The position numbers were made by a program, and so were the translations under genes. From a virus: 23,224 nucleotides of DNA. The DNA is taken from the IMG/VR virus record IMGVR_UViG_3300047548_000629, positions 1 through 23,224 of that record. One strand, written 5' to 3'. Positions 8,207 through 13,582 of this stretch are shown here, piece by piece. The notes below the pieces were generated by a model, which saw only the letters and a program-made list of their open reading frames with translations, searched no databases and was not told the origin of the DNA. Positions within the stretch are counted from its first letter, which is position 1. Every line of letters begins with the position of its first letter.

Positions 8207-8368
8207 TCAATATCTTGATGGTGTATATTCAAGGTCTCCAAGAATATCTTCCAACATTATACCATACTCTTTAAATCTTTTGTCACCAGCAATAAAACAT
8301 CTTTGACGCATCCATACCGCATCAGCAAGAAGTTTAATCTGGTCTTCCGTAAGTGTTAAGGTTTTCAT
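8207..8368 (-). CDS. Small conserved helical protein, 53 aa
   Basis: MKTLTLTEDQIKLLADAVWM is followed by RQRCFIAGDKRFKEYG and EDILGDLEY. It looks like a short three-helix protein. An AGAGG Shine-Dalgarno lies upstream. It is the first gene after the psbD terminator and is followed two bases later by the metallophosphatase. A TTGACT sequence at 8410-8415 upstream could be a -35 box, but no convincing -10 goes with it. Confidence 0.65.
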   Translation of the reverse strand: MKTLTLTEDQIKLLADAVWMRQRCFIAGDKRFKEYGIMLEDILGDLEYTPSRY

Positions 8369-8466: not shown

Positions 8467-9528
8467 TCATAATGCATTTCCACGAGGTAAAACTTCCTCT
8501 GGGAACACAAAGTTCTCGTGAGGTTGATCAACTGGTGCCATCCAAGCACGAAGACCTTCATTTAGAAGAATATTCTTCGTATAGAAAGTTTCAAACTCTG
8601 GGTCTTCCGCTGCACGAATCTCTTGAGATACAAAGTCATAAGCTCGAAGATTAAGGGCAAGACCAATAATCCCAATAGAACTAGTCCAGAGACCCATGAC
8701 AGGGACGAAAAGCATAAAGAAATGCAACCAACGCTTATTAGAAAAAGCAATACCAAAGATTTGAGACCAGTAGCGGTTTGCAGTAACCATCGAATAAGTC
8801 TCTTCCTCTTGTGTAGGTTCAAATGCTTTGAAAGTATTTGATTGATCTCCATCTTCATAAAGAGTATTTTCTACAGTAGCACCATGGATCGCACAGAGCA
8901 GTGCTCCACCTAGGATACCAGCAACTCCCATCATATGGAAGGGGTTGAGGGTCCAGTTGTGGAAACCCTGAAGGAACAGAAGGAACCTGAAGATTGCTGC
9001 GACACCAAAGGATGGAGCGAAGAACCAACTGGATTGACCCAGTGGATACATCAGGAATACTGAAACAAATACTGCGATAGGACCAGAGAATGCGATTGCG
9101 TTATAAGGACGGATTCCGACCAATCTAGCAATCTCAAACTGACGAAGCATGAACCCGATTAGAGCGAAAGATCCGTGGAGAGCCACAAAAGGCCAGAGTC
9201 CCCCAAGTTGGCACCACCTGACGAAATCCCCTTGAGACTCAGGACCCCAAAGTAAAAGAAGAGAATGACCCATAGAATCTGCAGGCGTTGACACAGCTGC
9301 CGTAAGGAAATTAGCGCCCTCAAGATAACTAGACGCCAACCCATGGGTGTACCAGCTTGTAACAAACGTTGTGCCAGTAAGCCAGCCACCAAGGGCAAGA
9401 TAAGCAGTGGGAAAAAGAAGGAGTCCAGACCAACCCACAAATACAAAGCGATCTCGTTTAAGCCAGTCATCCAGGACATCGAACCATCCTCGTTGTGAAA
9501 TAGGTTGTGAAAGTGTTGAAGAAGTCAT
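8467..9528 (-). CDS. psbD: Photosystem II D2 protein
   Basis: 353 aa, full length for D2. Tyr161 (YD, Tyr160 in usual numbering), the chlorophyll ligand His198 in NPFHMMG, and His215 and His269 as iron and quinone-site ligands are all present. Five transmembrane helices are expected in the thylakoid membrane. D2 pairs with D1 to form the PSII reaction centre; phage copies replace turned-over protein during infection. GGGAGG lies 4 bases before the ATG. The gene has its own composite host/late promoter (9550-9583) and terminator. There is no intron or frameshift. Confidence 0.98.
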
Positions 9529-9549: not shown

Positions 9550-9583
9550 TATTTATGTTAACATCTCTTAACAAAGAGGTCAA
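9550..9583 (-). promoter_or_regulatory. Composite host-type/late promoter of psbD
   Basis: The minus strand has TTGACC (9578-9583), 17 bases, then TAACAT (9555-9560), which runs directly into a late box CATAAATA (9550-9557). Only about 21 bases separate the late box from the ATG. The spacer includes the inverted repeat GTTAA-GAGATG-TTAAC. The same layout appears before psbA and the porin gene. Confidence 0.6.
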
Positions 9584-9596
9584 TGAGAATTTATGC

Positions 9597-9719
9597 TTAC
9601 CCCCAATAAATCTGACCAAGAGTGAATAAAACAAATATAAGAACTGTGAATATCATAAGTCCTACACCTGCCCAGATTACCCAGGTAGGCATAGGTTCGT
9701 TTTGAGTATTATGAGACAT
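9597..9719 (-). CDS. 40-aa membrane peptide between psbA and psbD
   Basis: MSHNTQNEPMPTWVIWAGVG then a hydrophobic run ending LFTLGQIYWG: a short polar N-terminus and one transmembrane helix. The size and Trp-Gly end recall small photosystem or cytochrome b6f subunits, but I cannot match it to a named one. It overlaps the 3' end of the endonuclease gene by 11 bases and precedes psbD. The real start could be the internal ATG (MPTWVIW). Confidence 0.65.
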   Translation of the reverse strand: MSHNTQNEPMPTWVIWAGVGLMIFTVLIFVLFTLGQIYWG

Positions 9720-10074
9720 TGAGATATTGAATCATTTTTTGTAAAGTATCTATATTATCTCCTACAAGACCTAATGCGGTGTTGCAGTTATTGCACAAAA
9801 CTCCACGAACTTTATTTGTAGAGTGGCAATGGTCAATACATTTCTTGGTTAGTTTTGTATCACATATTTGGCAGTTCTCATTTTTCATTAATTCTTCATA
9901 AAGGTCATCAGATATTTTTAATTTCCTTCTAATATCATGGTGAGGTTTATAATATTTTATTCTGACTTGCCTCTCACAATCCTTACATTTTGATTGGACT
10001 CCAGATGGTCTATCACTTCTTTTAGAGAAAAAATCAAGTTCTTTTGTTAGTCCACATCTGCTACAAGTTTTCAT
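9709..10074 (-). CDS. Endonuclease VII-type (HNH/beta-beta-alpha metal) nuclease, probable homing endonuclease
   Basis: 121 aa. The N-terminal half has two Cys pairs (C4/C7 and C30/C33), probably a zinc-ribbon DNA-binding part. The C-terminal half has C68/C71, the catalytic DHCH (81-84), and VLCNNCNTALG with C94/C97, matching recombination endonuclease VII (T4 gp49-like). T4 gp49 resolves Holliday junctions, but short phage copies are often homing enzymes. Its place just after psbA recalls the free-standing psbA-targeting endonuclease F-CphI of phage S-PM2; whether it belongs to the same family I cannot say. It has its own late promoter. Confidence 0.88.
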   Translation of the reverse strand: MKTCSRCGLTKELDFFSKRSDRPSGVQSKCKDCERQVRIKYYKPHHDIRRKLKISDDLYEELMKNENCQICDTKLTKKCIDHCHSTNKVRGVLCNNCNTALGLVGDNIDTLQKMIQYLNVS

Positions 10075-10117: not shown

Positions 10118-10145
10118 ATAAAAAAAGAGACCCGAAGGTCTCTTT
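10118..10145 (-). terminator. psbA terminator
   Basis: A 9-bp stem AAAGAGACC with GGTCTCTTT, a UUCG tetraloop and seven Ts on the minus strand. It is a very strong intrinsic terminator 26 bases after the psbA stop. Confidence 0.93.
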
Positions 10146-10170: not shown

Positions 10171-11250
10171 TCAACCGATTGCAGGTGCAGTCAAAGCAAC
10201 AGGAGTGTTGGTTGCAGCAGCAAGGTCAAGTGGGAAATTATGAGCATTTCGTTCGTGCATTACCTCCATGCCCAGACCAGCACGGTTCAGAACATCAGCC
10301 CAAGTGTTGAGCACACGACCCTGAGAGTCAATGATGGACTGGTTGAAGTTGAAACCGTTGAGGTTGAATGCCATGGTGCTAACACCAAGAGCAGTAAACC
10401 AGATGCCAACTACAGGCCAAGCAGCAAGGAAGAAGTGCAGTGAACGTGAGTTATTGAACGATGCGTATTGGAAAATAAGACGACCGAAATAACCGTGTGC
10501 AGCTACGATGTTGTATGTTTCTTCTTCTTGTCCGAACTTGTAACCATAGTTTTGGGACTCATTTTCTGTCGTCTCACGTACAAGACTAGAGGTGACGAGA
10601 GATCCGTGCATAGCAGAGAAAAGAGAACCACCGAAGACACCAGCAACTCCCAACATGTGGAAAGGATGCATAAGAATGTTGTGTTCTGCCTGGAAAACAA
10701 GCATGTAGTTGAAAGTTCCCGAAATCCCCAGAGGCATCGCATCAGAGAAGGATCCTTGACCGAAGGGATAGACCAGGAACACTGCGCTAGCAGCAGCAAC
10801 GGGTGCGCTGTAAGCAACACAAATCCAAGGACGCATACCAAGTCGGTAAGAAAGTTCCCATTCACGACCCATGTAGGCATAGATACCAATCAGAAAGTGG
10901 AAGACGACCAGTTGGAAAGGTCCACCATTATATAGCCACTCATCTAGGGAAGCAGCTTCCCAAATGGGGTAAAAGTGCAGTCCAATTGCGTTGGACGAAG
11001 GAATAACAGCACCTGAGATGATGTTGTTTCCGTACATGAGTGAACCAGCAACGGGTTCACGGATACCATCAATGTCTACAGGAGGTGCAGCAACGAAGGC
11101 AACAATAAAACAGATAGTCGCAGCAAGTAAGCAAGGAATCATCAAGACTCCGAACCAACCAACATAAAGACGATTATCAGTTGAAGTAACCCAATTGCAG
11201 AACTGTTCCCAAGTATTTGATTGTCGTTGTTGTGAAATTGTAGCAGTCAT
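10171..11250 (-). CDS. psbA: Photosystem II D1 protein (E130, high-light form)
   Basis: 359 aa, full-length D1. It has Tyr161 (YZ), the water-oxidising cluster ligands Asp170, Glu189, His332, Glu333, His337 and Asp342, chlorophyll ligand His198, iron ligands His215 and His272, and Ser264 at the QB site. A C-terminal extension follows Ala344, so CtpA processing is expected. Residue 130 is Glu, as in high-light D1 isoforms. The gene has no intron, although some cyanophage psbA genes do. It has its own terminator, a leader of about 160 bases with a hairpin, and a near-consensus promoter at 11413-11446. There is no clear Shine-Dalgarno. Confidence 0.98.
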
Positions 11251-11301
11251 TTTTCTTAAAAGAGTAGTAAGACCATCAGGGAAATGGTGGAGTTACTATT
11301 T

Positions 11302-11322
11302 CCCAGTCACCCTCAGACTGGG
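11302..11322 (-). other. Hairpin in the psbA leader
   Basis: A perfect 7-bp GC-rich stem (CCCAGTC with GACTGGG) and a 7-base loop lie 52 bases upstream of the psbA ATG. No U-run follows, so it is more likely an RNA-stability or translation element than a terminator. A near-late box (TATAAATT, about 11335-11342) lies just upstream. Confidence 0.45.
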
Positions 11323-11412
11323 TATGAGAGACGTAATTTATACACCCCATAGGTCTCGGTTAGTGGGTGTTACAAAGATTAAAGAACTGTTACATTCCTT
11401 AACCTGTTGATG

Positions 11413-13420: not shown

Positions 13421-13582
13421 TTATCTATAATACTCTTCAATTTTATCTAATACTTTATTCAGATATCTGTGAGCAACTTCTTTAGGATTGCCACCCCAAC
13501 TAAATTCATCTCTGTCCAATTGATTTTTTATCTTGAGAACTTCCGTTCTCATAATATCTTTAGTAAGTTGTCCTCTTGGCAT
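13421..13582 (-). CDS. Small conserved cyanophage protein, 53 aa
   Basis: MPRGQLTKDIMRTEVLKIKN, then a DEFSWGGNPKEVAHRYL core and a helical end (NKVLDKIEEYYR). I recall similar small proteins in other cyanomyoviruses; function unknown. It begins just after the terminator at 13587-13619 and stops 19 bases before the C39-like gene, so it probably leads that transcript. Confidence 0.68.
   Translation of the reverse strand: MPRGQLTKDIMRTEVLKIKNQLDRDEFSWGGNPKEVAHRYLNKVLDKIEEYYR

Follow-up and report, generated by a model that had tools for sequence, protein, structure and literature searches.

What does a 40-residue peptide encoded between two photosystem II (PSII) genes of a virus do, and is it a component of photosynthesis that belongs to the virus itself? 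The question is raised by a viral sequence record 23,224 bases long, analysed over its full length and termed the window here, which is a cyanomyovirus-type fragment whose closest DNA matches are cyanophages. On its minus strand the gene order is psbA, an endonuclease VII-type open reading frame (ORF), a 40-amino-acid ORF and psbD.

A small gene between psbA and psbD

The peptide ORF (positions 9597..9719, minus strand) starts with ATG, ends with TAA and translates to MSHNTQNEPMPTWVIWAGVGLMIFTVLIFVLFTLGQIYWG. Its first 11 nt are also the last 11 nt of the endonuclease ORF (9709..10074, minus strand; PF02945 Endonuclease_7, E 1e-16; PHROG 2633, E 1e-34), and a gap of 68 nt separates the end of the peptide ORF from psbD. 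A preliminary description of this DNA had placed a 40-residue membrane ORF in the psbA/psbD gap, overlapping the end of the endonuclease; both the coordinates and the overlap are confirmed. The flanking genes are psbA, encoding the D1 protein (10171..11250, minus strand; PHROG 182, E 8e-204), and psbD, encoding D2 (8467..9528, minus strand; PHROG 182, E 4e-173). The window psbD displays 87-96% identity to the best 80 cyanobacterial loci and 95-99% to the best 80 viral loci. A PhotoRC-II RNA motif is found upstream of psbA (11288..11382, minus strand; Rfam RF01717, 85.4 bits).

The peptide is a member of PHROG 7358 (profile match E 5.3e-22, positions 2-40 of 40), an entry that carries no function. 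A tblastn search of 50,697 phage records at E <=10 matches 52 records, a count that includes GenBank/RefSeq duplicates of one genome. Forty-eight of these are cyanophages by name, 44 of them with E <=5e-4, and the other four are weak matches in other phages; within the phage collection searched, significant matches are confined to cyanophages. Isolates carrying the peptide include S-RSM4, S-RIM2 and S-RIM8, and the ORF has been left unannotated in S-RSM4, S-H35, S-T4 and S-SCSM2R. A relative is also encoded in 130 IMG/VR stretches, of which the best 80 (L009-L088) are used for the locus counts given below. Judged from these sequences, the peptide represents a conserved family of membrane peptides of approximately 40 residues in viruses of Synechococcus.

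The ORF is a genuine gene under purifying selection, with a pooled, uncorrected pN/pS of 0.37 over codons 5-40 of 70 distinct gene copies. There is virtually no chance that it is a spurious frame conserved merely through overlap with neighbouring genes: in many loci it does overlap petE, psbD or the endonuclease by ~1-17 nt (stops counted), but the overlap spans at most about six codons whereas selection was measured on codons 5-40, and the peptide core is unchanged behind different genes, so that selection and cross-context evidence together refute this reading.

The peptide is predicted to be a single-pass membrane protein. Peak Kyte-Doolittle hydropathy in a 19-residue window is 2.7, and AlphaFold2, run with a 25-sequence alignment, gives a single helix at residues 12-39 with a mean pLDDT of 88. 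Family members have about 37-44 residues, a polar and variable N-terminus, a P-x-W motif with which the conserved part begins, and one predicted transmembrane helix with F-T-x3-F. In a 32-row alignment (A3) the invariant positions are W13, F24, T25, F29 and Y38. The conserved residues do not define a significant helix face, as 1389 of 5000 shuffles are equally strong. Two subfamilies are linked by hhalign with a probability of 99.3%. Subfamily A, which includes the window copy and is petE- and psbA-linked, mostly displays EPMPxW[VI]xWAGxGxMxFTxxxF. Subfamily B, found in S-T4, S-TIM54, S-SCSM2R, S-SCSM1, L204, L342 and L349, reads roughly IPxWVYxxGIxLxxFTIxCFGIMLAGM, and three of its members score against PHROG 7358 with E 0.013 to 9e-05. 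Two further loci, L350 and L361, look intermediate between A and B.

The variable N-terminus is partly made from the tail of the preceding gene. In all 33 loci where the peptide overlaps petE, its first 11 nt are ATGTCTCATAA, and the TAA contained therein is the petE stop. The copies in S-T4 and S-TIM54 overlap the end of psbD, stop included, by 17 nt in a different frame. ATGTCTCATAA is kept in 28 of the 31 copies classed as psbA-linked; the petE-linked group of the selection analysis was defined by the stop at the overlap, and its 40/40 is thus partly by construction. The N-terminal MSHN of psbA-linked copies may represent a fossil of the petE overlap, which is suggestive only, because other invariant codons are equally uniform in these copies.

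Positions beside photosynthetic electron-transport genes

The genomic placement of the peptide was classified in the best 80 of the 130 loci by counting photosynthetic electron-transport (PET) genes on the strand of the peptide only. Overlap with petE forms the largest single class (33/80) and overlap with psbD is found in two loci. In 13 loci psbA lies immediately upstream, and in 17 psbD lies immediately downstream while the 110 nt in front are free of PET genes. A PET gene is found within 2.5 kb in eleven more loci. Four have a PET-free fetched piece, two of them with ~0.5 kb upstream; in L086 and L087 no PET gene occurs over at least 4.2 kb of upstream sequence. As loci frequently end at contig edges, contexts without PET genes are upper bounds. 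The PSII cluster, taken in the preliminary description as the setting of the peptide, is therefore one home of the peptide among several.

As controls, two further small genes from the window were analysed in the same way. The peptide has psbA, psbD, petE or PTOX within 110 nt in 65 of its 80 loci, whereas this applies to 5 of the 80 best loci of the gene at 8207-8368 (PHROG 2064) and to none of the 80 best loci of the gene at 13421-13582. Within 2.5 kb of PET genes the corresponding figures are 76/80, 66/80 and 32/80; such regional clustering, in what is a hot spot for gene cassettes, is non-discriminating, so direct adjacency alone is used as evidence. Lying immediately beside PET genes sets the peptide apart from both control genes. 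The peptide, petE and psbD locus sets share some contigs and ancestry, and as their counts therefore do not represent independent events, it is the variety of junction types that carries the argument. The PHROG 2064 gene itself recurs near PET genes, and in ACG-2014a is found directly after petE.

When loci are selected by the photosynthesis gene, regardless of the peptide, the 80 viral loci whose psbD is closest to that of the window include 40 with the peptide (flanks of up to 2.5 kb). Among 79 petE loci (L080 was left out of the best 80), where ORFs starting near the petE stop were tested, 14 carry the peptide immediately behind petE (13 type A copies and a single type B copy); thirteen of the 14 were tagged by script and one, L260, was added by eye. 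With petE in 401 phage records and the peptide in 48, most petE phages are without a detectable copy.

Isolate genomes display several of these arrangements. The order is petE, peptide, PTOX in S-SCSM1 and S-RSM4, and petE, ferredoxin, peptide in S-H35; in S-T4, S-TIM54 and S-SCSM2R the peptide is directly 3′ of psbD. The 11 isolate genomes checked have psbA and psbD in ten cases and petE in nine. In S-RIM50, psbA and psbD are present and petE is absent, and the peptide lies ~60 kb from psbA. In S-B68 the copy is diverged (47% identity; L005:3998-4132) and lies among small hypothetical genes, and psbA, psbD, petE, PTOX, ferredoxin and hli were not recognised in it with the queries used. Only four auxiliary metabolic genes are listed for S-B68 in a published paper (PMC7472177). 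The peptide is thus not restricted to phages with PET genes: its presence far from photosynthesis genes in a phage without recognisable psbA and psbD, which the preliminary description had named as the observation that would refute a photosystem-associated peptide, is found in this one genome.

S-B68 also supports the main alternative, whereby the peptide would be a phage membrane protein unrelated to photosynthesis (of holin/antiholin type, or active in superinfection exclusion or membrane remodelling) that rides on mobile petE/PTOX/zwf/gnd and psbAD cassettes. In one study petE, PTOX, zwf and gnd are treated as genes that may move as a single cassette together with an endonuclease (PMC3037559), a picture that agrees with the position of the peptide at petE. 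The regional clustering shared by the two control genes, an endolysin gene located ~0.85 kb past the window's psbA and a weak match of the peptide to a spanin family (E 0.47) are in keeping with such a protein. The direct adjacency, however, is not shared by the controls, and the several types of junction are all at PET genes. In addition, the petE-linked copies in S-H9-1, S-RSM4 and S-RIM2 have structural, terminase and gnd genes around them, and the annotation shows no lysis gene in the vicinity. A passenger of this kind is considered somewhat unlikely.

The endonuclease ORF of the window is not a constant part of the arrangement. An endonuclease VII-type gene separates psbA from the peptide in at least 9 of the best 80 of 130 loci, and endonuclease-free psbA-peptide-psbD relatives are found in L009, L014, L029 and L040. 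The F-CphI of S-PM2 is a free-standing homing endonuclease with this motif, located beside an intron-bearing psbA (PMC6083498). With this precedent and the endonuclease-free relatives, the window's endonuclease ORF is best interpreted as an F-CphI-type insertion. Its 11-nt overlap with the peptide is the same as the overlap between petE and the peptide.

Expression signals are less clear-cut. An intrinsic-terminator-like stem-loop with a T-run follows psbA (10124..10145, minus strand). In four endonuclease-free relatives (L009, L014, L029 and L033) the psbA stem-loop has a T-run that ends at the ATG of the peptide, so that expression there requires read-through or an unrecognised start. A promoter-like TTGACC-17-TAACAT is present between the peptide and psbD (9555..9583, minus strand; a consensus match alone), and a similar TTGACC-containing sequence is found in L012, L014 and L029; the seven promoter-like sites in the region are not above shuffled sequence (5.0 +/- 2.2). 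The overlapping stop and start codons behind petE and psbD suggest translational coupling. On the minus strand past the T-run of the psbA terminator, TATAAT (10115-10110) and TATAAATA (10108-10101) precede the endonuclease and may form a promoter; TATAAATA resembles the T4 late promoter.

Other small ORFs are present in these regions. A second small membrane peptide, PHROG 7010 (44 aa, MNHADHST...; e.g. L058:5120-5251), follows the first in 36 of the 80 loci, frequently with a stop/start overlap. Its carriers are all within L049-L088; it is absent from the window and in some loci lies directly after petE without the first peptide. In L302, L310, L315 and L353 an unrelated hydrophobic ORF of ~44 aa, with an acidic tail containing GGILQPVY, starts 3 nt before the end of psbD. 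There seem to be several such small peptides in viral PSII operons. Separately, in viral contigs L019, L026, L296 and L299, psbA is interrupted by long inserts and split into several parts, as would be expected with introns.

Comparison with photosystem subunits and host sequences

The size and single helix of the peptide had led to the proposal of a relationship with PsbI, PsbM, PsbT, PetN or PetL, to which the first four are indeed similar in these two respects. A Pfam scan of eight members detects none of these, nor PsbJ or any other photosystem family, and a 32-member profile compared with all PDB chain sequences at E <=10 matches no photosystem subunit. In hhalign comparisons with cyanobacterial alignments of PsbJ, PsbI, PsbM, PsbT, PetN, PsbF and PsbL, the best score for PsbI, PsbM, PsbT and PetN is 15.7 (PetN against A, in one direction), which is within the shuffle range. 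Membership in these four families is therefore rejected, and PsbF and PsbL are likewise at noise. For PetL the Pfam scan is the sole comparison.

The nearest photosystem family is PsbJ (PF01788). Like the peptide, PsbJ has about 40 residues, one helix and an (I/L)P-x-W that starts the helix; the FFYG-Y-G tail of the PsbJ copies compared is missing from the peptide. PsbJ ranks at the top of the seven families both with the whole set (hhalign score 16.6, probability 15%) and with B (18.7, 32%), and the score exceeds those of 30 out of 30 column-shuffled PsbJ controls. With the B profile, PsbJ (4yuu_J1) is second of five PDB matches and the sole photosynthetic chain listed, at a non-significant E of 0.3. 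The integrin, eL39 and chemotaxis chains matched in the PDB searches are attributed to chance resemblance to the P-x-W/helix pattern or to the His-rich start.

One may thus envisage a viral analogue of PsbJ, diverged or convergent, situated at the plastoquinone exit of PSII, where it would alter QB/plastoquinone exchange or PSII assembly with phage D1/D2. The rank of PsbJ and the common motif at the helix start are in its favour, but the unrelated pair PsbF-PsbM (19.35) and shuffled PetN (21.7) score as high, and PsbJ appears neither with the 32-member profile nor with single members in Pfam. PsbJ is regarded as a lead and not as a family assignment, and the analogue as quite unlikely.

An oxidase-type anchor, that is, a relative of the N-terminal helix of CcoP/FixP that steers plastocyanin electrons to an oxidase, appears most improbable. 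FixP_N (PF14715) has a PxPxW-like stretch before one helix, as in the peptide, and ranks first among the Pfam matches (E 0.0058), being hit by six of the eight members scanned; CcoP 3mk7 is matched by the 32-member profile at E 2.6. The PF14715 score of 16.7 bits, however, is below the 24.9-bit cut-off, and the family was found in none of 16 host-family genomes searched. The peptide has neither a haem motif nor the cytochrome domain, and 40 residues hold no c-type haem-binding domain.

The psbA, psbD and petE genes of cyanophages, among other photosynthesis genes, are copies of host genes. The peptide occupies the same operons and junctions as cyanophage psbA, psbD, petE, petF, PTOX and hli, but whereas those genes have host homologues (as seen here for psbD), none that is significant was detected for the peptide. 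Two peptide patterns compared with 84,980 bacterial and archaeal genomes gave 38 stretches, none of which is a relative. With the 32-member profile the best E value is 0.14 in seven cyanobacterial genomes. In 300 host-family genomes, 24 reached E 0.1, the best being 0.013 in a 190-codon frame; among the 25 host-family matches listed, none spans the 40 positions and nine are in frames of 27-68 codons. Eight weak host matches that were inspected are mostly pieces of unrelated frames. An origin as a host-derived auxiliary metabolic gene is thus rejected at the sensitivity used, although for so short a protein a remote host homology is possible. The weak match in host genome G139 (locus L194; E 0.055) is a frame of 68 codons that contains KPLPRWLIFAGGGLG; it is similar to the interface motif and possibly a remote relative or a chance match. 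A frame of equal length is matched in G120 (E 0.064). In searches of the cyanophage literature for small membrane proteins, psbA/psbD, petE, PTOX and psbJ, no description of the peptide was found; work on the psbAD region may mention it.

A possible role in infected cells

That the peptide recurs at several kinds of junction, each of them at a PET gene, speaks for selection for co-expression. We favour, with moderate confidence, a phage-specific auxiliary photosynthesis peptide that would be made with PET proteins and would act in the thylakoid on the segment from PSII through plastoquinone and b6f to plastocyanin. Of the earlier suggestion of a photosystem-associated phage peptide, the single predicted helix and the recurrent PET junctions, compared with controls, are retained; the subunit families proposed for it find no support, and S-B68 stands against it.

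Beyond the family, its linkage and the selection, which are observed, and the helix, which is predicted, a location, a partner and an effect are what we infer. The peptide would be made together with the psbA, psbD, petE or ferredoxin products that it follows, and would insert in the thylakoid membrane while phage D1, D2 and plastocyanin are produced. There it may pack onto one of the complexes of the PSII-plastoquinone-b6f-plastocyanin segment, either as a low-molecular-mass accessory subunit or as an effector. The most likely partner would be PSII, as 10 of 11 carriers have psbA/psbD, petE can be missing and there is a weak resemblance to PsbJ. By keeping or redirecting electron flow during decay of the host proteome, the peptide probably tunes host photosynthetic electron transport during infection.

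A bolder proposal, and an unlikely one, is that the peptide is a small subunit that the virus itself has added to the photosynthetic apparatus, without a host ancestor, inserted next to phage D1/D2 in the PsbJ/plastoquinone-exit position or coupling PSII output to plastocyanin and PTOX. If true, the photosystem of infected cells would have an electron exit set by the phage. The peptide is short, linked to tractable genes and present in isolates, and its effect on electron flow is open to direct testing. Travelling with psbA, psbD, petE, ferredoxin and PTOX and without a detectable host homologue, it would be a component of photosynthesis that is the virus's own.
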